This document shows positions 50,226 through 62,827 of a DNA stretch of 64,000 nt, in pieces; within the stretch, counting starts at the first letter, position 1; every line of letters starts with the position of its first letter. Under the pieces are notes generated by a model that saw nothing but the letters and a program-made list of their open reading frames with translations, ran no database searches and was not told the origin of the DNA. The stretch is from the NCBI RefSeq assembly GCF_028609845.1, contig NZ_CP063191.1, positions 310,001 to 374,000 of the forward strand. Reading direction: 5' to 3'. Source of the DNA: Corynebacterium heidelbergense. GTDB taxonomy: Bacteria; Actinomycetota; Actinomycetes; Mycobacteriales; Mycobacteriaceae. The translations under genes were made by a program, and so were the position numbers.

Positions 50226-51644
50226 ATGAGCGACCGTACCAAGCGCGACGATTCCACTCCCGGCCTGAACAACATTAAGCGCGACGCCGTGGGCAAGTTC
50301 ATGCGCGTTCTCACCCAGATCACCGGTTCTGAGTTCGCGCAGAAGAACGACCTGTCCAAGAAGGTCGACCGCGCCGCCTACCAGACCACCAAGACGGGCG
50401 TGCGCACCTTCGGGGCGGCTAACCGCCAGTTCGCCAAGATCAAGGGCTCCGGCAAGCCGGTACGCCTGCCGAAGCAAACGGTGGATGAGTCCAACGAGCC
50501 CGTTCCCTCCGAGACCCCCGCACCCGGCAAGGCTCCTTTCGACCTGAATCCCACGGAGGATCAGGAGATGATCGTGGCTGCCGTCCGCGAATTCGCTGAG
50601 GAGCGTCTGCGCCCCGTGGCCGGCGAATGCAACGAGGCCTCCAAGCCCGCCGAGGGCCTCCTTGACACCGCCGCCGAGCTCGGTGTCGCCCTGGTGAACC
50701 TCCCGGAAGAGTACGAAGGCATCGCCACCGCCTCCGGCGCAACCACCTCCGCCCTCATCGCCGAGGCGCTGTCCTACGGTGACATGGGTCTGGCCGTGGC
50801 CATCCTGGCTCCCGCCGGTGTCGCGAACACCATCACCAACTACGGTGACGACGCTCAGCAGAAGACCTACCTGCCGGCCTTTGCCGGTGATTCGGTGCCC
50901 CCGGCGGCCGTCGTAGTTTCCGAATCTCGCCCGCTGTTCGATCCGTTCAGCCTGCAGACCACCGCCAAGCGCGAGGGCAGCGAGATCGTTATCAACGGTA
51001 CGAAGACACTGGTCCCCAACGCCGCTGAGTCCGAGCTGTTCGTCGTCGCCGTCGACCTGGATGGCGTGAACACCTTTGCCATCGTTGAGTCCAAGAACGA
51101 AGGCATCGAAATCGAAGCCGACCCGTCCATGGGTCTGCGTGGAGCTGCCCTGGGACGCATTAACTTCAAAGACGTCCGCATCCCCGCCGAAAACCTCCTC
51201 GGTGGTGCAGACCTGTCCAAGGAAGACCGCACCGAGGCCTACGCAGAGATCATCCGCCGCTCCCGCCTCGGGTGGGCCGCCCTGGCGATGGGCACCGGCC
51301 AAGCCGTCCTGGACTACGTCCGCGATTACGTCAACGACCGCGAGGCCTTCGGAGAGCCGATCTCCCACCGCCAGGCCGTGGCCTTCATGGTCGCGAACCT
51401 TCGCATCGAGCTGGACGGGCTGCGCATGCTTGTGCTGCGCGGCGTATCCCGCCTGGACCAGGGCCTGTCCTACCACCGCGAGGCAGCCCTGGCCCGCCGC
51501 TTCGCCTCGGATAAGGGCATGGTGTTCGGCCTCGACGGCGTGCAGCTGCTCGGCGGCCACGGCTTCACCAAGGAGCACCCCGTGGAGCGCTGGTACCGCG
51601 ACCTGCGGGCCGTCGCCATCACCGAGGGCGTTGTCGTCCTGTAA
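50226..51644 (+). CDS. Acyl-CoA dehydrogenase subunit (FadE24-like)
   Basis: A 472-residue flavoprotein of the acyl-CoA dehydrogenase family. An N-terminal extension of about 100 residues precedes the core, which begins DLNPTEDQEMIVAAVREFAE. VVSESRPLFDPFSL lies in the FAD/substrate area, and LLGGHGFTKEHPVERWYRDL in the C-terminal domain. The chain stops soon after AITEGVVVL, so the last helix seen in ordinary enzymes is missing. Size and neighbour order match mycobacterial FadE24-FadE23, and the two probably form a mixed complex. AAAGGTAGC precedes ATG 50226. The substrate is unknown. Confidence 0.87.
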   Translation: MSDRTKRDDSTPGLNNIKRDAVGKFMRVLTQITGSEFAQKNDLSKKVDRAAYQTTKTGVRTFGAANRQFAKIKGSGKPVRLPKQTVDESNEPVPSETPAPGKAPFDLNPTEDQEMIVAAVREFAEERLRPVAGECNEASKPAEGLLDTAAELGVALVNLPEEYEGIATASGATTSALIAEALSYGDMGLAVAILAPAGVANTITNYGDDAQQKTYLPAFAGDSVPPAAVVVSESRPLFDPFSLQTTAKREGSEIVINGTKTLVPNAAESELFVVAVDLDGVNTFAIVESKNEGIEIEADPSMGLRGAALGRINFKDVRIPAENLLGGADLSKEDRTEAYAEIIRRSRLGWAALAMGTGQAVLDYVRDYVNDREAFGEPISHRQAVAFMVANLRIELDGLRMLVLRGVSRLDQGLSYHREAALARRFASDKGMVFGLDGVQLLGGHGFTKEHPVERWYRDLRAVAITEGVVVL

Positions 51645-51701: not shown

Positions 51702-52910
51702 ATGATCAACCTGGAACTTCCCAAGCGTCTCAAGGCGGGCGTGAACCAGGCGCACCAGGCCGCCGAATCCATCTTCCGCCCCATCTCCCGCAAGTACGAC
51801 CTCAAAGAGCACGCCCGTCCGGTCGAGCTGGACACCATGGCCTCCCTCGTGGAGGGGATGGCCGATGCCGGTCAATCCATGGCCGGTGCTACCGGCAGCC
51901 GGGGTGATAAAAAGCCCCAGGCTGATGGCGTCAAAAATGGTGGGAACATGGCCGCCCTGCTCAACGTCATCGAGACCTGCTGGGGTGACGTGGGCCTGAC
52001 CTTGTCCATCCCCTACCAGGGCCTGGGCAACTCCGCGATCGCCGCCGTCGCCACCGACGAGCAGCTGGAGCGCTTCGGCAAGGTGTGGGCCGCCATGGCG
52101 ATCACCGAGCCCCAGTTCGGCTCGGACTCCGCGGCCGTCGCCACCACCGCCAAACTGGACGGCGACGAGTACGTGCTCAACGGTGAGAAGATCTATGTCA
52201 CCGCCGGCGAGCGCTGCACCCACGTTGTGGTGTGGGCGTCCGTGGACAAGTCCGCTGGACGTGCGGCCATCAAGTCCTTCGTCGTGCCGCGGGATACACC
52301 CGGGTTCGAGCTGATCCGCCTCGAGCACAAGCTCGGCATCCGCTCCTCCGACACCGCGCACTTCATGCTGGACAACGTGCGCATCCCCAAGGAGAACCTG
52401 CTGGGTTCCCCCGAGGTGGACACCAAGAAGGGCTTCGCCGGTGTGATGGCGACCTTTGATAACACCCGTCCGCTGGTGGCCGGCATGGCCATCGGCGTGT
52501 CCCGAGCGGCGCTGGAGAAGCTGCGCGAGATTCTCACGGACGCCGGTGTGGTCATCGACTACGACGCCCCTGCATGGAACCAGCCTGCTGCTGCGGCTGA
52601 ATACATCCGGTTGGAGAGCGACTGGGAGGCCGCATACCTGCTGGCACTGCGTGCTGCCTGGATGGCTGACAACAAGATCCCGAACTCGAAGGAAGCCTCC
52701 GAGTGCAAGGCGAAGGCCGGGCGCACCGCGACCGACCTGACCTTGCGCGCGGTTGAACTGGCCGGTGCGTACGGCTACTCCGAGCGGGACCTGTTGGAGA
52801 AGTGGGCGCGAGACTCCAAGATCCTCGACATCTTCGAGGGTACTCAGCAGATCCAGCAGCTCATCGTTGCTCGCCGCGAGCTGGGCCTCAGCTCCGCTGA
52901 GCTGAAGTAG
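51702..52910 (+). CDS. Acyl-CoA dehydrogenase subunit (FadE23-like)
   Basis: A 402-residue dehydrogenase: AMAITEPQFGSDSAAVATTA (FAD site), YVLNGEKIYVTAGERCTHVV, DNVRIPKENLLG, and at the end DIFEGTQQIQQLIVARRELG with the usual catalytic-base glutamate. It is complete, unlike its upstream partner. The gene follows 57 bp later with CGAGGAACTC before the ATG and ends in a strong terminator, so the two make a two-gene operon for oxidation of an acyl-CoA. FadE24/23-like pairing is inferred from lengths and order. Confidence 0.88.
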   Translation: MINLELPKRLKAGVNQAHQAAESIFRPISRKYDLKEHARPVELDTMASLVEGMADAGQSMAGATGSRGDKKPQADGVKNGGNMAALLNVIETCWGDVGLTLSIPYQGLGNSAIAAVATDEQLERFGKVWAAMAITEPQFGSDSAAVATTAKLDGDEYVLNGEKIYVTAGERCTHVVVWASVDKSAGRAAIKSFVVPRDTPGFELIRLEHKLGIRSSDTAHFMLDNVRIPKENLLGSPEVDTKKGFAGVMATFDNTRPLVAGMAIGVSRAALEKLREILTDAGVVIDYDAPAWNQPAAAAEYIRLESDWEAAYLLALRAAWMADNKIPNSKEASECKAKAGRTATDLTLRAVELAGAYGYSERDLLEKWARDSKILDIFEGTQQIQQLIVARRELGLSSAELK

Positions 52911-53155: not shown

Positions 53156-54094
53156 CTACTTAAGTTGCTCCACCCCGTAGCGGGCCTCTTCGGGTGTGAA
53201 CTTCCCTGCCGCATCCGAGGTCAGAGTGTTGTAGATCATATCTTCGGGGGTGCCGACATCCTTAAGGAGTTGGGCGGACTTCGCAGCGTTTTCTTTCCAG
53301 TCCGCGTCGATGTGATCCACGGCGTACCTTGCAATTTCAGGTGGGTATGACCCCCCAATCCCGTTTGTCATCATGTCGATGATGGCGCGGCGCGAAAGAT
53401 GCGAGCTGTCACTGTAGAGGCGGGCCCGTCTGATGGCTCCCTCATCTTCCTTATATTCGTCGGGCAGGCCTTTTCCGTCTTGCCCTAACTGTTCAAACTG
53501 TCGGGTCGGATCATCGGTGGCTAGAGACGGTGGCGGGACTTGCGCACCGCTGGGTGTACTGAAGGTTGTAACTGGGGCGCTCGGAGTAGATCCGATGGCC
53601 TGATTTGAACCTTCAGGTGAGGCATTGGACCCTAAATAGTTGGCTATGAAAGCGCTGCCCCCGAGAATGAGCACAGCAGCGAGCGCACCCACAATCCACT
53701 TCACTGTCTTGTTGTTACCGGAAGGCTTCATACCGGGGTAAGGTTGTGCCCCATTGAAGGGCGGTGGGTTGTGGTGAGCTGTTTGGCGAATGTACTGCTG
53801 CCCCTGGGTCATTGGTTGTGGTTGGTTAGGTCGGCCGTACTGTTGGTCAGCCTGATGGGGTTGGTGACCGGGCTGGGGCTGTTGGCCATTCGGAACGTAC
53901 GATCCGTACTGCTGGTTTGGATGCGCCGTTGAGCCCGGCGGCACGTGCCGGTCGTATTCGGGGCCAGGAGATCCTTCGGGTTGACCGGGCGGGGTGGGTT
54001 GGCCGTAATAGTTGGGGCGCTGGGCACCTGATGGCGAGCGGGTGGCATCTTGGCTGGTGGGACGGGGCCCGGAGCGTGAACCTTGTGGTGACAC
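53156..54094 (-). CDS. Membrane-anchored protein with two Ltp (host cell surface-exposed lipoprotein) repeats
   Basis: 312 residues. A Pro/Gln/Tyr-rich cytoplasmic-type tail (residues 1-125, with NQQYGSYVPNGQQPQPGHQ) is followed by a membrane helix (VKWIVGALAAVLILGGSAFI), a Ser/Thr/Pro linker, and about 95 residues with two Ltp-like units. One spans AIRRARLYSDSSHLSRRAII to IARYAVDHI, the other ENAAKSAQLLKDVGTPEDMI to EARYGVEQL. Ltp domains are known from phage TP-J34 superinfection-exclusion lipoproteins and are common on corynebacterial surfaces. Here the lipobox is replaced by a membrane anchor. The start is GTG 54094, with AAAGGA 13 bases upstream. GC and codon use are looser than in neighbours. 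Confidence 0.72.
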   Translation of the reverse strand: MSPQGSRSGPRPTSQDATRSPSGAQRPNYYGQPTPPGQPEGSPGPEYDRHVPPGSTAHPNQQYGSYVPNGQQPQPGHQPHQADQQYGRPNQPQPMTQGQQYIRQTAHHNPPPFNGAQPYPGMKPSGNNKTVKWIVGALAAVLILGGSAFIANYLGSNASPEGSNQAIGSTPSAPVTTFSTPSGAQVPPPSLATDDPTRQFEQLGQDGKGLPDEYKEDEGAIRRARLYSDSSHLSRRAIIDMMTNGIGGSYPPEIARYAVDHIDADWKENAAKSAQLLKDVGTPEDMIYNTLTSDAAGKFTPEEARYGVEQLK

Positions 54095-56271: not shown

Positions 56272-58857
56272 GTGACCGATGTAACCACGCACCCTCCAGA
56301 AAACGCAGCCACCCCGGATTCCGCCCTCGACCTCCTCATTGTGGGCGCCGGAATGTCCGGCGTCGACCTGGCCTACCACGTCACCCAGAACTTCCCAACG
56401 TGGTCCTGGGAGATTCACGATAATCACGCCGAAGTCGGTGGCACGTGGCACACCGTCCGCTACCCGGGCATTCGCTCCGACTCGGACATGGCCACCTTCA
56501 ATTTCCCGTTTCAGCCCTGGCCGCACCGCGGAACCCTTGGGCAGGGCCCGGATATAAAGCGCTACATTACTGAGGCCGCGCAGGTCGCCGGGGTCCCGGG
56601 CCATCTGCACCTGAGGTCTTGGATCAAAAACGTGGACTGGTGTAGCGAGCACGCCGTCTACCGCGTTACCGCCCTGCGTACCACGGGGGCCATCGGTGGC
56701 GGCGAGGATGCGGTGGACGATTCGCCAAACGCCGCAGACCCCGCCGCACCGGGGGAGGGCCCGCAGCGCGTCTTCTACGCCCGCCGGGTCCATTTCGCCG
56801 TGGGTTACTTCGCCCACGGCCGTGGCCACCGGCCCTCCTTCCCAGGGGAAGAGGCCTTCCGAGGCTCCATCGTGCACCCTCAGCAGTGGCCAGAGCAGAT
56901 GGATTACGCCGGACGCCGCATCGCGGTCATTGGCTCGGGTGCCACGGCCATCTCCCTCATCCCAGCGCTCGTGGATCTTGGCGCTCAGGTCACGATGGTG
57001 CAGCGCACTCCCAGCTACGTCGCCCCGCTGCCGGAGGTGGATGTGATCTCGGCGGTGTGGAAAACCCTGCTGCCGCATCGCTGGGCCCTCCCGGTGGCTC
57101 GGTTGAACCACGCTGCCCGCGATGAGTTGCAGTACCTCATCGCGCAGCACCTGCCCTCCCTGTTCGCGCTGGCCCTGCGGCTCATGCAGCGGCGCTACCT
57201 CAGCGCGGCGGCCATCGACCAGCACTTCACGCCCTCTTACCGCCCCTGGGACCAGCGGGTCTGCAAGGCCCCGGACGGGGACATCTTCCGCGCGATGAAC
57301 AAGGGAGCCCAGGTTGTCACGGGTTCTATCGACTGTTTCACCCCAACGGGCATTCGCATGACGGATGGCCAAGAGGTACCGGCGGATGTGATCGTCACGG
57401 CCACGGGCATGGATCTGCAGGCCTTTGGCACGGGGACGGTTAGTGTGGATGGCCAGATCATGGACCCTGCGGAACTGGTGACATACCGGGGTGCTCTGGT
57501 GGCTGGGTGCCCAAACTTCAGCTTCACCTTGGGGTACCTCAATGCCTCTTGGACGCTGCGGGCGGATCTGGTGTCCCGGTACCTCGTGCGGCTGTGGAAG
57601 TTAGGGGAGGACGTGTATGTCCCGGTTCTTCCGCCTGGGCGTTCGGATCGCAGGATTTGGGAGTTCGAGTCGGGCTATATCCAGCGGGGGATCGCGCAGT
57701 TCCCCACGCAGGGGGATGCCGCCCCGTGGCGCTACGAGCAAAACTACTTGGCTGAATTGAAGGAAATGAGATTTGGGGATGTGCGGAGGGATATGGCTTT
57801 CGGGCGGGAAGTCACAAAACACGTCGGTATAGACGACTATCGAAAGGTAAAACAGATGGAAATTCAATCGTTCGGAGCAAAAACTCCGCAGCCGCATACT
57901 GATTTAACTGGGCTGCCTGTACCGAAGTTCGTTGGTGGGGGTATGTACCCGATGAGGGTCCGGGTGCGCCCCCCTTCAGGTTCGGACGTTCCGCGTCGAG
58001 TTGTGGTGATGGTTCACGGTCTGAGCCGGTCCCTGGAGGACTGGGATGACCAGGTTGCACTCTGGGACGATCGTGATCAGCTCATTGCCGTTGACTTGCC
58101 GGGCTTTGGCCGGACTCCAGGCCTCTTGCAGCCCTCCGTCGCGGGATTCGCTCGGCGAATTTGGGGTGCGGTCGATGAGGTGGCTGAAATGCAGCAGAAC
58201 CAAGGAGTGTCTGGCGGCATTCATATCGTCGGCAACTCCTTGGGTGGATCGATAGCGATGGAGATGGCCATCGGTCGACCCGCATCGGTGGCCAGCATCA
58301 CCATGGTGGATCCCGCGGGGTTCGGGAGCAGCATGTCTGTACTCCTGAAACTGATTGCGCTGCCTGGAATTGGGAAGGTGAACGCGTGGGCAACGCGCCT
58401 ACGCCCAATCTATCAACCGGTAGAGCATGTGATTCTGCGTCGCCGGGGCGCGGTTACGCGACATCGCATCGCCGTAGCGGGCCAAGTTACCAAGAACCCG
58501 GATCGAACGGATACTTATTACCGACTGGTCCGGCTCCTTTGTTCTCCTAGAGGGTGGCGAAGCCAATGGCAGAGACAGTTGTCGGAACGCTTTCGGGCTG
58601 TAAACCTGCAGCACGAGGTTCCTGTCTCCGTTGTTTGGGGACGGGGAGACAAGATCGTTCCATTCAGCCACTTCCGTCGAAGCCTGGAGGAGCTAGCTCC
58701 CAAAGCGGCTATGGTGTTCGATAATTGTGGGCACATGCCGCAGTTGGAGTACCCCCAGGAATTCTGTGATGCGGTGGACCGATTCCAGCAGGAGGCGGAA
58801 GCGTTTCGGTGTAATGGCGTGACTGCGTCCACTCGTGGGGCTCAACCGATGTTCTGA
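56272..58857 (+). CDS. Bifunctional Baeyer-Villiger-type flavin monooxygenase / alpha-beta hydrolase, copy 1
   Basis: 861 residues in two domains. Residues 1-520 are a class B flavin monooxygenase: FAD motif GAGMSG (25-30), the Baeyer-Villiger fingerprint F196-x-G198-x3-H202-x3-W206-P and the NADPH motif GSGATA. Residues 555-845 are an alpha/beta-hydrolase with nucleophile S656 in GNSLGG, D793 in WGRGDK and H821 in CGHMPQLE. The first domain would insert oxygen next to a carbonyl to give an ester, and the second could hydrolyse that ester. The substrate is unknown. The GTG start lies eight bases after a TAAACT box. The hydrolase half is AT-richer than the monooxygenase half. A paralogue follows 16 bp later. 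Confidence 0.82.
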   Translation: MTDVTTHPPENAATPDSALDLLIVGAGMSGVDLAYHVTQNFPTWSWEIHDNHAEVGGTWHTVRYPGIRSDSDMATFNFPFQPWPHRGTLGQGPDIKRYITEAAQVAGVPGHLHLRSWIKNVDWCSEHAVYRVTALRTTGAIGGGEDAVDDSPNAADPAAPGEGPQRVFYARRVHFAVGYFAHGRGHRPSFPGEEAFRGSIVHPQQWPEQMDYAGRRIAVIGSGATAISLIPALVDLGAQVTMVQRTPSYVAPLPEVDVISAVWKTLLPHRWALPVARLNHAARDELQYLIAQHLPSLFALALRLMQRRYLSAAAIDQHFTPSYRPWDQRVCKAPDGDIFRAMNKGAQVVTGSIDCFTPTGIRMTDGQEVPADVIVTATGMDLQAFGTGTVSVDGQIMDPAELVTYRGALVAGCPNFSFTLGYLNASWTLRADLVSRYLVRLWKLGEDVYVPVLPPGRSDRRIWEFESGYIQRGIAQFPTQGDAAPWRYEQNYLAELKEMRFGDVRRDMAFGREVTKHVGIDDYRKVKQMEIQSFGAKTPQPHTDLTGLPVPKFVGGGMYPMRVRVRPPSGSDVPRRVVVMVHGLSRSLEDWDDQVALWDDRDQLIAVDLPGFGRTPGLLQPSVAGFARRIWGAVDEVAEMQQNQGVSGGIHIVGNSLGGSIAMEMAIGRPASVASITMVDPAGFGSSMSVLLKLIALPGIGKVNAWATRLRPIYQPVEHVILRRRGAVTRHRIAVAGQVTKNPDRTDTYYRLVRLLCSPRGWRSQWQRQLSERFRAVNLQHEVPVSVVWGRGDKIVPFSHFRRSLEELAPKAAMVFDNCGHMPQLEYPQEFCDAVDRFQQEAEAFRCNGVTASTRGAQPMF

Positions 58858-58873
58858 GAGGACCCAGAATTCT

Positions 58874-61564
58874 ATGGAATCACCTACAGGACCCGTGGGC
58901 TCTCGACACCTCCGGACGCTAGATCTGCTGATCGTGGGCGCTGGGTTGAGTGGCGTCGATATGGCTTACCACGTCTCCAGCGCCTTCCCGGACTGGCGGT
59001 GGGAGGTCCACGACACCCACGCGGAGATGGGCGGCACGTGGCACACATTCCGCTACCCGGGCATTCGTTCGGACTCGGACATGGCCTCCTTCGGGTTCCC
59101 CTTCCGGCCGTGGACGGGGTCCAGCACTCTGGGGAGGGGTGCGGAGATCATGTCCTATCTGCGTGAGGTTGCTGAGGACGCCACCATGACCCAGCGCCTG
59201 CACACGTGCAGCTTCATCCGCAACGTGGATTGGCGGTCAGAGCGCGGGATGTGGCTGGTCACGGCGGTGCGAACGAACGGCGAGCCGGGGGACGTGCCGG
59301 AGTCCACGCGCCCGGGGGCAGGCAGCGCCGACCCCACAGCCCGAGCCGTGGGGCAGACGGAGCGATTCTGGGCCAAGCGCGTTCACTTCGCGTCTGGCTA
59401 CTACTCCCACGGTCGTGGGCACCGTCCGCAGTTCCCCGGGGAGGGGGACTTCACCGGCCAGATCATCCACCCCCAGGCCTGGCCGGACGGCCTGGACGTC
59501 CGCGGCAAGCGGGTAGTGCTCATCGGCTCCGGGGCCACGGCGGTCACGATGCTGCCGGCGCTGGTGGACTTCGGCGCGGACGTCACAATGTTGCAGCGCA
59601 CGCCTAGTTACATCGCCCCGCTGCCGGAGAAGGACGTGATCTCCGCGTTCTGGAAGCGCCTGCTACCCGCCCGCTGGGCGGGGCGGGCAGCCCGGTTGAA
59701 CCACGCCACCCGCGACGAGTTCGAGTACCTGCTGGCGCAGCACGCGCCTGAAGTTTTCGCTGGTGAGCTGCGGCGAATGCAGCGCAAGTTCATCTCGCCG
59801 GAGGAGATCGAGCGCAACTTCACCCCGCCCTACAAGCCCTGGGACCAGCGGGTGTGCAAGGCCCCGGATGGGGACTTCTTCCGGGCCCTCGCCGGGTCGC
59901 GTGCGCGGGTAGTGACCGACCGGATCGAGCGGTTTACGCGGCGCGGGGTGGAGGTGGCGTCCGGAAGAGAAATCGACGCGGACATTATCGTCACCGCGAC
60001 GGGACTGGAGCTGCAGGCCTTCGGGGGCGGAACCGTTTCCCTCAACGGCGTGGAGCAGGACCCGGCCGAGCATGTGGTGTACCGCGGCATGATGGTCGCG
60101 GGACTGCCCAATTTCAGCTTCACGGTGGGGTACATCAACGCGTCCTGGACGCTGCGGGCGGACCTCGTCAGCCGGTACATGGTCAAGCTGTGGAAGGCGG
60201 GGCATAGCGCCTACACCCCCGTTTTGCCGCCCGGGCGATTTGATCGGCACCTGCTGGAATTCGACGCGGGGTACATCCGGCGCGGCGTGCACCGGTTCCC
60301 GCGGCAGGGCGATAGCGCGCCGTGGGTCTACGAGCAGAACTACCTGGCGGAGTTGAAGGACCTGGGCTTCGGCGACCAGGAGCGGGATATGGCCTTTGAT
60401 GACGAGGCCCTGGCCCAGGTGGGCCGGGCCAGGCCGGCCCCGTGCGTGGAGACTGTCGACGTGGGCGGGCCCTATGTGGAGCCGGACATGCGCTCCTTGC
60501 CGCCGTGCGATTACGTGCGGGTGAACGACCGGGTTTGCAGTACCGCGGGGCGGCCGGTGCGGCGCGGTGATGGGCAGGGATGCGGCGGCGACTACGCCTG
60601 CGGGGGGCCGCGCGTGCGGGTGCGGGTGCGGGAGGGGGCGCCGGGATGTACCAATACGGTGGTGCTGATCCATGGGGTCGGTCGCAGTCTCGACGACTTT
60701 GACGACACCTTCGCCGTCTGGCAGGGCAAAGAGCAACTGGTGGCCGTGGATCTTCCTGGATTTGGATTCAGCGACCCCTTGACGGAGCTGTCCATGGAGA
60801 CTGTCTCCCGGGCAGCGTGGGAGGCTGTAGACGCCGTGACCACCGGGGAGGAGACCTATCATCTTGTGGGAAACTCCCTGGGTGGGGCGGTGGTCATGGA
60901 GATGGCGGTGCAGCGGCCGGCGGCCGTGGGAAGCGTAACGCTGGTGGACTCGGCGGCCTTCGGCACAACGGCGACGTGGCTACTGCGCCTGGTGGCAATC
61001 CCGCTGCTGGGACAGACCAACGCGTGGGCGATGCGGATCCGTCCGATCTACGGGCTGGTGGAGCGGGTGGGGCTCCGCCGACCAGGGGCGGTGACGAAGC
61101 GGCGCGTGGAGGTGACGCGGCGGGTGGTGCGCCATGCCGCGCGGCCGAAGGCGTTCTACGGGTTGGTGCGGCAGTTGGGGTCCCCGTTGTCTATCCGCAG
61201 CGACTGGCAGGACGACCTGATCGAGCGGTTCCGGGCTGTGGTTAGGCCCAGTGAGGGGGTTGCATCGGACGATGCTGGGGCGCGCAGCGATGGGTTGGAC
61301 GGCGACGGGGTGCGCGGTGATGGACTGGACGCCGGGGCGAAGATCGAGGGCGACAGCGCTGCTGCTACCCCCCGCCGGGGCATACCCGTGTGGGTGGTGT
61401 GGGGCGAGGACGACAAGGTCTTGCCCTATTCTCAGTTCCGCACAGCGCTAGAAAATGTGCAGCCGGACGTGGCTACGGTGTTTAACCACTGCGGCCATAT
61501 GCCGCAGCTGGAGTACCCGAAGGAGTTTGCCGAACGTTTGGAACGGTTCATCCGGCGGGGGTAG
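58874..61564 (+). CDS. Bifunctional Baeyer-Villiger-type flavin monooxygenase / alpha-beta hydrolase, copy 2
   Basis: 896 residues with the same order as copy 1. GAGLSG lies near the N-terminus, F193-x-G195-x3-H199-x3-W203-P is the Baeyer-Villiger fingerprint, and GSGATA the NADPH site. The hydrolase triad is S668 (GNSLGG), D847 (WGEDDK) and H875 (CGHMPQLE). It differs by a longer inter-domain linker with several cysteines (residues 535-590) and by a repetitive Gly/Asp insertion (SDGLDGDGVRGDGLDAG) before the catalytic Asp. GAGAGGA lies 11 bases before ATG 58874; a GTG at 58835 would overlap copy 1. It is GC-rich throughout. The two genes are probably co-transcribed. Confidence 0.82.
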   Translation: MESPTGPVGSRHLRTLDLLIVGAGLSGVDMAYHVSSAFPDWRWEVHDTHAEMGGTWHTFRYPGIRSDSDMASFGFPFRPWTGSSTLGRGAEIMSYLREVAEDATMTQRLHTCSFIRNVDWRSERGMWLVTAVRTNGEPGDVPESTRPGAGSADPTARAVGQTERFWAKRVHFASGYYSHGRGHRPQFPGEGDFTGQIIHPQAWPDGLDVRGKRVVLIGSGATAVTMLPALVDFGADVTMLQRTPSYIAPLPEKDVISAFWKRLLPARWAGRAARLNHATRDEFEYLLAQHAPEVFAGELRRMQRKFISPEEIERNFTPPYKPWDQRVCKAPDGDFFRALAGSRARVVTDRIERFTRRGVEVASGREIDADIIVTATGLELQAFGGGTVSLNGVEQDPAEHVVYRGMMVAGLPNFSFTVGYINASWTLRADLVSRYMVKLWKAGHSAYTPVLPPGRFDRHLLEFDAGYIRRGVHRFPRQGDSAPWVYEQNYLAELKDLGFGDQERDMAFDDEALAQVGRARPAPCVETVDVGGPYVEPDMRSLPPCDYVRVNDRVCSTAGRPVRRGDGQGCGGDYACGGPRVRVRVREGAPGCTNTVVLIHGVGRSLDDFDDTFAVWQGKEQLVAVDLPGFGFSDPLTELSMETVSRAAWEAVDAVTTGEETYHLVGNSLGGAVVMEMAVQRPAAVGSVTLVDSAAFGTTATWLLRLVAIPLLGQTNAWAMRIRPIYGLVERVGLRRPGAVTKRRVEVTRRVVRHAARPKAFYGLVRQLGSPLSIRSDWQDDLIERFRAVVRPSEGVASDDAGARSDGLDGDGVRGDGLDAGAKIEGDSAAATPRRGIPVWVVWGEDDKVLPYSQFRTALENVQPDVATVFNHCGHMPQLEYPKEFAERLERFIRRG

Positions 61565-61757: not shown

Positions 61758-61822
61758 TAGTGTCTAAGCTAAGCGAGGAGAGACGGTCACAGCAAATAAG
61801 GGCCGGGAAAAGGAGCTTGACG

Positions 61823-62827
61823 ATGTCGCCCGCAGATTCCACGATTGTTCCTGAGTCCGCCGAGGGCCTCGCCAACGTGTTGTACGACTTTGCCATCGTT
61901 GGCGGGGGAGCGGCCGGCCTGAGCGCCGGAATCACTCTTGCCCGGGGGATGCGAAAGGTCGTTGTTTTGGACGCGGGCAACCCGCGCAATCGGGCCAGCC
62001 CGGCAGCGCATGGTCTGCTCGGGCACGATGGAACGTCCCCGGTTGACCTGCTCGCCCGGGGCCGTCGGGACTATGAAACTTATGGGGGTGAGTTTCGCGA
62101 AACGACAGTTCACAGCGCAGAGCGTTCGGATGACGGGAACTTCCAGCTCGAGGTAGTCCCTAGCAGGTCGGCAGTTCCCGAGGTTGTCCGATCTCGCGCC
62201 GTCATTGTTGCCACGGGCCTGCGTGACGAACTCCCCGACATCCCCGGTTTGCAAGAGAATTGGGGCACGCGCGTTCACCACTGCCCCTACTGCCATGGTT
62301 ACGAAAGCCGCGGCTTGGATTGCGTGGTCATTGGCGGCGAGAACCACTTTTTCGCCGTCCATCAGTCCGCGTTGTTGAAAAATTGGTGCCCGCAAGTCAC
62401 GCTCATCCAACATGGCAGCCCCTTGTCAGACGAGGACTCAGCTATGCTCCGGCGCGCTGGTGTTGACGTCGTGCAGCAGCGGGTTGCTCGTGTCGATATT
62501 GCAAAATCCGATCCGGACGGTGGGCCGAACCAACGCGTCGCTGTGCATCTCATCGATGGAACCCGGAAGCTTTTCGGAACGTTGTTTACGCCACCGGTGT
62601 TCGTACCGAACGACGCGCTCCTCCGCCAGCTCGGATGCGAGGTGGAGGACGGCTGGGTTCGCGTCGACCAGATGTGCGCCACGTCCGTGCCTGGCGTGTG
62701 GGCGGCGGGCAACTGCAGCAGTATGGGAGATCAGATTGCTCACGCCATGGCGCGCGGGACCACGGCGGCGATGCAGGCGAACTTTTGGCTTCTTCAGCAG
62801 GATTTGGCGGCGCATGAGGAGAGGTAG
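61823..62827 (+). CDS. Thioredoxin-reductase-like FAD/NAD(P)H oxidoreductase
   Basis: 334 residues. FAIVGGGAAGLSAGI is the FAD site, VHHCPYCHGYESRG carries a redox-active CPYC pair in the position of the thioredoxin reductase disulfide, VVIGGENHFF begins the NAD(P)H site, and GVWAAGNCSS is the C-terminal FAD motif. Ordinary TrxB has CATC and GDV, so this is a divergent paralogue with GNC in place of GDV. AAAAGGAGC lies eight bases before ATG 61823; GTG 61760 would add 21 residues. No thioredoxin gene is adjacent. A Fur/Zur-like box lies upstream. GC content is lower than in the core region. Confidence 0.83.
   Translation: MSPADSTIVPESAEGLANVLYDFAIVGGGAAGLSAGITLARGMRKVVVLDAGNPRNRASPAAHGLLGHDGTSPVDLLARGRRDYETYGGEFRETTVHSAERSDDGNFQLEVVPSRSAVPEVVRSRAVIVATGLRDELPDIPGLQENWGTRVHHCPYCHGYESRGLDCVVIGGENHFFAVHQSALLKNWCPQVTLIQHGSPLSDEDSAMLRRAGVDVVQQRVARVDIAKSDPDGGPNQRVAVHLIDGTRKLFGTLFTPPVFVPNDALLRQLGCEVEDGWVRVDQMCATSVPGVWAAGNCSSMGDQIAHAMARGTTAAMQANFWLLQQDLAAHEER

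Follow-up and report, generated by a model that had tools for sequence, protein, structure and literature searches.

Tandem fusions of a predicted Baeyer-Villiger monooxygenase and an alpha/beta-hydrolase in Corynebacterium heidelbergense and the recurrence of this pairing in Actinomycetota

The mycobacterial mymA operon joins the functions of a Baeyer-Villiger monooxygenase (BVMO), a hydrolase (LipR) and a short-chain dehydrogenase/reductase (SDR; SadH). The operon comprises seven genes in all, adhD being the fourth (PMC13234193). In Gordonia sp. TY-5, the acetone monooxygenase AcmA and the esterase AcmB, encoded in one operon, act in series on a ketone (PMC6215540, PMC3604635). Activity on linear ketones has been reported for the EthA/MymA/Rv0565c branch of BVMO, the description of which mentions no hydrolase domain and states as open the role of EthA/MymA beyond prodrug activation (PMC9044951). 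Here, we describe two consecutive genes, ORF1 and ORF2 (for open reading frames), each of which encodes a BVMO half and an alpha/beta-hydrolase half in a single chain, in a 64,000-nucleotide stretch of the Corynebacterium heidelbergense genome (assembly GCF_028609845.1, contig NZ_CP063191.1, positions 310,001 to 374,000; hereafter, the window).

The locus shares features with each of these systems. As in AcmA/AcmB, with which it is compared by description, BVMO and esterase activities are predicted to work in series, but AcmA and AcmB are two separate proteins, whereas the window encodes both activities in one chain and in two tandem copies. The fingerprints of the BVMO half are those of EthA, MymA and Rv0565c, and EthR_C- or AraC-type regulators are found beside the module in some relatives; unlike in these enzymes, the hydrolase is part of the same chain. 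The genes of the mymA operon, likened here by description, are unfused. Engineered cascades of alcohol dehydrogenase, BVMO and esterase for hydroxy fatty acids include the same activities as those predicted here, in the same order, but consist of separate proteins from different organisms (PMC6035261, PMC8403116). Side-by-side BVMO and esterase genes are already known, and the one-chain form is widespread but apparently unstudied; in open-licence literature, as judged by titles and the beginnings of abstracts, no description of a natural one-chain BVMO-hydrolase was found.

We predict that each of the two proteins is a bifunctional ketone-cleaving enzyme, in which Baeyer-Villiger oxidation is followed by ester hydrolysis, and assign to this reading a probability of roughly 0.75. 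It builds on the presence in a single chain of both folds (in ORF1) and of conserved catalytic residues (in ORF1 and ORF2), on the repeated association of BVMO with hydrolase genes, in many cases together with an SDR, and on the occurrence of the fusion in several lineages.

The fused gene pair and its two halves

ORF1 and ORF2 reside in a 2.33-Mb genome of 2 contigs and are 56% identical over 824 aligned residues (Table 1). Across the 824 codons, they differ at frequencies of 0.351, 0.271 and 0.586 for positions 1, 2 and 3, respectively, the third-position excess being the pattern expected of two genes under selection. Another 25 full-length homologues, partly from the same genomes as the fused loci counted below, align with both from end to end (alignment A1, 27 rows). 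The first-pass annotation of this DNA had proposed paralogous BVMO-hydrolase fusions, twice in a row, with the residues for both predicted activities intact, and the frames, motifs and alignments bear this out.

When called from GTG 58835 (58835-61564), ORF2, which contains no internal stop in this frame, would overlap the end of ORF1. Its nearest homologue, P0005 (named Corynebacterium heidelbergense), shares 97% identity with the 896-aa form and starts at the Met corresponding to ATG 58874, which is therefore the likelier start codon. The resulting gap of 16 nt after the ORF1 stop, together with GAGGA 11 nt before the ATG, suggests that both genes are likely carried on a joint transcript. 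The Asp/Gly-rich insertion in the hydrolase half of ORF2 is common to P0005, the remaining 25 of the 27 A1 rows having a gap or a shorter partial insert.

Type I BVMO are defined by the fingerprints BVMO1, [GA]GxWx4[FY]P[GM]x3D, and BVMO2, FxGx3Hx3W[PD], along with two GxGxx[GA] motifs (PMC9044951). Both proteins contain both fingerprints as well as two GxGxx[GA] Rossmann motifs, located at residues 25 and 221 of ORF1 and 35 and 231 of ORF2. Upon shuffling ORF1 20,000 times, BVMO1 arose once, BVMO2 8 times and both jointly never. Strict matches to both fingerprints occur in 37 of the 45 fused rows and 95 of the 119 BVMO rows. Asp70, which lines up with the KSD Asp in the solved cyclohexanone monooxygenase, is kept in 118 of these 119 rows, with a gap in the remaining one, and the proposed catalytic Arg329 in all 119; fragment and profile searches gave no alignment of the Arg329 stretch with solved BVMOs. 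The Pfam FMO-like scores of the two ORFs are low (28.5 bits, above the cut-off of 22, and 18.1 bits, below it), which is offset by strong profile matches to solved BVMOs and, for ORF1, by a structure model with the two-dinucleotide-binding BVMO fold. As this model matches solved BVMOs over residues 12-515, the concern that the N-terminal half might lack a complete class B monooxygenase fold is not borne out for ORF1. The stand-alone relative P0052, named EthA in UniRef, is 56% identical over 60% of ORF1, and the N-terminal half is predicted from its sequence to be an EthA/MymA-like BVMO.

The C-terminal halves score 70.4 and 60.6 bits against Pfam Abhydrolase_6, and the ORF1 model shows the canonical fold, matching solved serine hydrolases over residues 548-842. 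With the Ser-Asp-His triad intact in both ORF1 and ORF2, the possibility that the C-terminal half is a non-hydrolytic relative, which the first-pass annotation had named as a potential refutation, finds no support.

Distribution of the fusion and of the split module

Of 201 Corynebacterium genomes searched with ORF1, at least 16 have the fused gene, the window's own included; all 16 loci were retrieved, and counts out of 16 given below are among the matches listed. Both halves score above 80 bits in one frame at 15 of these loci (window included), and the other one, L048, has a single 796-aa frame with a weaker hydrolase half (63 bits). Scanning named species with the hydrolase half only yielded at least 591 stretches, at least 486 of them encoding a relative, of which the best 80 were used. 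The fused arrangement accounts for 23 of these loci, the gene order BVMO, SDR, hydrolase for 30, BVMO, hydrolase for 20 and BVMO, hydrolase, SDR for one, with six loci being devoid of BVMO; that is, a BVMO is fused or adjoining at 74 of 80 loci picked solely by their hydrolase half. Given this linkage, the fusion is best viewed, on comparative grounds, as the one-chain form of a recurrent BVMO-hydrolase module, which would work like AcmA/AcmB and is predicted to convert a ketone through an ester into acid and alcohol.

Three of the 23 fused loci (L050, L051 and L053) lie on the same contigs as loci from the Corynebacterium search. One of the other 20 belongs to C. ulceribovis and the rest to Arthrobacter, Pseudarthrobacter, Enteractinococcus, Subtercola, Frondihabitans, Salinibacterium, Agreia, Cryobacterium, Naasia and Lacisediminihabitans, the fusion being seen also in Arthrobacter and Microbacteriaceae. 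Besides the two genes in the window, 37 fused genes were listed, 34 of them distinct (three contigs were read twice). The survey of fused architectures in actinobacteria suggested by the first-pass annotation thus shows the fusion to be recurrent in several lineages of Actinomycetota, so that, as far as tested, the arrangement is not special to this region; only the tandem pair, present at one of 93 distinct loci, that in the window, is particular. At the split loci, 4-nt overlaps, counted with the in-frame start nearest to the preceding stop, are found at 26 of 30 BVMO-SDR, 24 of 30 SDR-hydrolase and 13 of 21 BVMO-hydrolase junctions.

The SDR gene lies directly downstream of the fused gene at eight of the 16 Corynebacterium loci (L034-L041). 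There is no SDR match at L042, L043, L044, L046 and L049 (window), and at L045, L047 and L048 the SDR is located kilobases away on the opposite strand; at the C. ulceribovis locus (L052), it adjoins the fused gene, also on the opposite strand. The window locus encodes BVMO and hydrolase together, in the same chain, and, with no SDR in the same operon, we describe it as a two-activity, duplicated form rather than a full member of the SDR-BVMO-hydrolase module. Other genes beside the module encode EthR_C-type TetR family regulators (9 loci; one member annotated, L098), AraC proteins carrying an Arabinose_bd domain (7 loci; one member annotated) and 3-hydroxyacyl-CoA dehydrogenase family proteins (12 loci; two members annotated). 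These neighbours were picked by longest frame, a rough criterion where the DNA is GC-rich.

Proteins of about 1100 aa, some of them named Ornithinimicrobium, combine three domains, BVMO, SDR and hydrolase (P0077, P0101 and P0103, one clade in the tree), as read from the sequence for P0077 and from the Pfam list for the others. The domain order in P0077 is the gene order of the split triads. Frames with a hydrolase followed by an SDR at L094 (7890-9737) and L073 (7953-9707) (Mycobacterium, Mycolicibacterium) represent a different fusion of the same parts. A BVMO, SDR, hydrolase triad in a record of Vibrio cholerae strain 35D (L086, contig00074) falls within the Arthrobacter group of the tree, and this contig is probably contamination.

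In a quick tree of 119 rows (L105, which is too short, and three duplicate loci were left out; a long-branch warning applies), ORF1 groups with P0002 and ORF2 with P0005, these pairs being sister to each other (SH-aLRT 88, unstarred branch), as expected from an old local duplication. The fused state requires 7 changes on this tree, 6 of the changes being forced by starred branches, with gain indistinguishable from loss. A tree in which the fused and stand-alone rows all group together is disfavoured (p-AU 0.0215; 82 rows, 37 of the 119 left out, and a group picked after the first tree).

Predicted reactions and competing explanations

In the proposed mechanism, the BVMO half, using FAD, NADPH and O2, would insert oxygen beside the ketone carbonyl to give an ester, which the Ser-Asp-His hydrolase half would split into acid and alcohol. 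The neighbouring SDR of many relatives would oxidize a secondary alcohol to the ketone, and the resulting acids would pass to FadE/FadD-type enzymes. Tethering of the two halves could curb loss of the ester. An aliphatic or fatty ketone is the most likely substrate; EthA, MymA and Rv0565c prefer linear ketones (PMC9044951). The two copies probably serve two substrate ranges.

Several observations weigh against this reading. One or both strict fingerprints are missed in 24 of the 119 BVMO rows, including 8 of the 45 fused ones, and the hydrolase half resembles C-C hydrolases (BphD, HsaD and MhpC) as much as esterases. No BVMO lies near six of the 80 hydrolase relatives; in the case of L119, the contig stops a short way upstream. 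The identity matrices of the two halves correlate closely (r 0.925, 84 loci; 0 of 1000 permutations as high), but this value is uncorrected for genome relatedness, which alone would yield part of it. As for the alcohol-oxidizing step, the window locus has no SDR match in the 20 kb around ORF1 and ORF2, 7 other Corynebacterium fusion loci of the 16 likewise have none (no match or none within 3 kb), and the best SDR in the window's genome is 32% identical to that of L035. Scored against the SDR domain of P0077, the fusion-adjacent SDRs of Corynebacterium reach 51-60 bits (L052, 85), compared to 234-294 bits for those of the split triads, which indicates that they are not close kin; different SDRs seem to occupy the partner position in the two settings. 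Finally, searches of the window's genome for dedicated alkane-oxidation genes as a source of secondary alcohols gave no P450 and no FA_desaturase-family match (controls positive in 7 of 14 and 5 of 14, respectively), and an alkane hydroxylase in this genome is rejected accordingly; AlkB falls under the latter family (PF00487). Among the hydrolase relatives lacking a BVMO neighbour are L085, L102 and L125 (Clavibacter), and the Pfam search of the upstream frames, made for L085 and L102, gave no match at E 1e-8.

A tentative proposal, which narrows rather than opposes the predicted ketone cleavage, is that the substrate is a mid-chain keto fatty acid: an SDR would oxidize a hydroxy fatty acid such as 10-hydroxystearate, the BVMO would insert oxygen mid-chain and the hydrolase would free two shorter acids or alcohols for beta-oxidation. 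There is precedent in the conversion of ricinoleic acid via the 12-keto acid into an ester by a BVMO named EthA, from Pseudomonas putida KT2440, acting together with an alcohol dehydrogenase of Micrococcus luteus (PMC6035261) and in the published artificial cascade of oleate hydratase, alcohol dehydrogenase, BVMO and esterase (PMC8403116). Genes for FadE and an acyl-CoA ligase lie near the fused gene, and full-length oleate hydratase (PF06100, E <1e-170), encoded in 19 of the 201 Corynebacterium genomes, is found in 8 of 16 with the fusion versus 11 of 185 without it (Fisher p 1.1e-5, relatedness ignored) and in both groups of fusions (4/10 and 4/6); two weaker matches over the cut-off, one marginal (G003) and one broken (G123), were left uncounted. 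However, the window's own genome has no PF06100 match, oleate hydratase shows no clear link to stand-alone BVMO (3 of 26 genomes with only this form versus 8 of 159, p 0.19), and it is not adjacent to the fusion where both places are listed (for example, 43 kb away in G087). Nor is there enrichment outside Corynebacterium (2 of 49 genomes carrying the module or the fusion, against 16 of 296 across the phylum; E <1e-70, one of the 16 being partial), and because the link holds within the genus but not beyond it, this general source of substrate is retained only as an alternative.

An improbable alternative is that sulfur or nitrogen is the main target of oxygenation by the flavin half, as for EthA and thioamide drugs, with the hydrolase acting on unrelated esters in xenobiotic detoxification. 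EthA-type enzymes do activate ethionamide (PMC9044951), and an EthR_C-type regulator, of the family counted above, adjoins the fused gene of L098, but the two type I BVMO fingerprints are fully preserved, and the halves occur together at 74 of 80 loci (at 31 with an SDR as well), which is more in keeping with consecutive reactions of a single route than with unrelated activities. Slightly less probable still is that the hydrolase half is a C-C bond hydrolase of the meta-cleavage-product type or an acyltransferase rather than an esterase. Its solved relatives include BphD, HsaD, MhpC and CarC, and BphD (102 bits) and HsaD-type (108 bits) matches score slightly above the esterase 4ns4 (96) and the lipases 4opm (96) and 7ots (81); however, C-C hydrolases and esterases belong to one large superfamily with close scores, and the product of a BVMO partner is an ester, unlike the diketones that arise from ring cleavage. 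An assembly or frameshift artefact, or one half being a relic, can be dismissed, given that, although a single indel could join genes with the 4-nt overlaps typical of most split relatives, there are 34 distinct further fused genes and 25 homologues aligned end to end, and ORF1 and ORF2 differ less at codon positions 1 and 2 than at 3.

The predicted ketone cleavage bears on the EthA/MymA family in general: the natural fusion tells which enzyme comes next in the pathway and the SDR found in many relatives which one precedes it, and with the flanking steps so named, the question of the EthA/MymA role can be put to a specific in vitro assay. The fusions would also provide natural single-chain catalysts for the cascade from ketone or hydroxy acid to acid and alcohol, which is now assembled from separate enzymes (PMC6035261, PMC8403116). 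A broader and rather doubtful extension, less probable than the keto fatty acid proposal, is that Actinomycetota possess a general chain-scission machine of SDR, EthA-type BVMO and serine hydrolase, repeatedly fused (BVMO-hydrolase and BVMO-SDR-hydrolase) for in-chain hand-over of the ester, of which the window pair would be a duplicate with two substrate ranges; if so, mid-chain cleavage of keto lipids would be the physiological role of EthA/MymA enzymes, which have mostly been known for activating prodrugs.

Neighbourhood of the pair and naming of its relatives

Table 1. Features of the fused gene pair and its surroundings (window coordinates)
Feature	Position	Strand	Basis
ORF1, fused BVMO and alpha/beta-hydrolase, GTG start, 861 aa	56272..58857	+	open frame, no internal stop
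ORF1 BVMO half, residues about 13-512	56308..57807	+	VIA-align rows to solved BVMOs within model residues 7-515
ORF1 BVMO1 fingerprint GGTWHTVRYPGIRSD, residues 56-70, including conserved Asp70	56437..56481	+	motif scan
ORF1 BVMO2 fingerprint FRGSIVHPQQWP, residues 196-207	56857..56892	+	motif scan
ORF1 Arg329, proposed catalytic Arg (WDQRVC)	57256..57258	+	inferred equivalence to the catalytic Arg of solved BVMOs
ORF1 alpha/beta-hydrolase half, residues about 544-843	57901..58800	+	Pfam and structure model
ORF1 nucleophile elbow GNSLGG (Ser656)	58231..58248	+	Ser in 93/93 hydrolase rows
ORF1 triad Asp793 (WGRGDK)	58648..58650	+	alignments
ORF1 triad His821 (CGHMP)	58732..58734	+	alignments
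GAGGA, ribosome-binding-like (inferred function)	58858..58862	+	11 nt 5' of ATG 58874, read from sequence
ORF2, second fused BVMO and hydrolase, 896 aa from ATG (909 aa from GTG 58835)	58874..61564	+	start chosen by P0005
ORF2 BVMO1 fingerprint GGTWHTFRYPGIRSD	59030..59074	+	motif scan
ORF2 BVMO2 fingerprint FTGQIIHPQAWP	59450..59485	+	motif scan
ORF2 nucleophile elbow GNSLGG	60869..60886	+	motif scan
ORF2 Asp/Gly-rich insertion in hydrolase half, ~45 aa, approximate bounds, 5' of triad-Asp strand	61247..61381	+	A1 alignment
ORF2 WGEDDK (triad Asp)	61400..61417	+	motif scan
ORF2 CGHMP (triad His)	61490..61504	+	motif scan
FadE-like acyl-CoA dehydrogenase a	50226..51644	+	L038 homologue (69%) is second gene upstream of fused gene
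FadE-like acyl-CoA dehydrogenase b	51702..52910	+	L038 homologue (85%) directly upstream of fused gene

The FadE pair lies 3.4 kb upstream of ORF1, with a transporter and a lipoprotein gene in between. At L038, the order is two FadE homologues, the fused gene and the SDR, and in both this locus and the window's genome (past the window end) an acyl-CoA ligase family gene and a Clp ATPase gene follow, the ligase having been annotated from the window's genome and assigned at L038 by its BLAST family. From this conserved vicinity, the fused gene appears to have remained at an old chromosomal location next to FadE genes. The lipid-oriented setting initially proposed for the pair is thus supported in part, by FadE and the acyl-CoA ligase. 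The phosphate transporter, like the thioredoxin-reductase-like neighbour, was not found by BLAST beside the other fused genes. A plasmid origin of ORF1 is rejected, as no plasmid match reached 60% identity (tblastn; all 582 records below 60%, 3 of them covering at least 80% of the query).

The lipoprotein gene between the FadE genes and the transporter encodes a Lipoprotein_Ltp (PF07553) protein on the minus strand (window 53156-54094). ORF2 is followed by a gene for a thioredoxin-reductase-like flavoprotein (window 61760-62827), the best NCBIfam score of which, 93 bits, is far below the respective cut-off. In databases, the fused proteins are named after a single half, 'alpha/beta fold hydrolase' by NCBI for P0003, P0005, P0006, P0007, P0015 and P0105 and 'monooxygenase' by JGI for P0004, so that each name conceals the other half.

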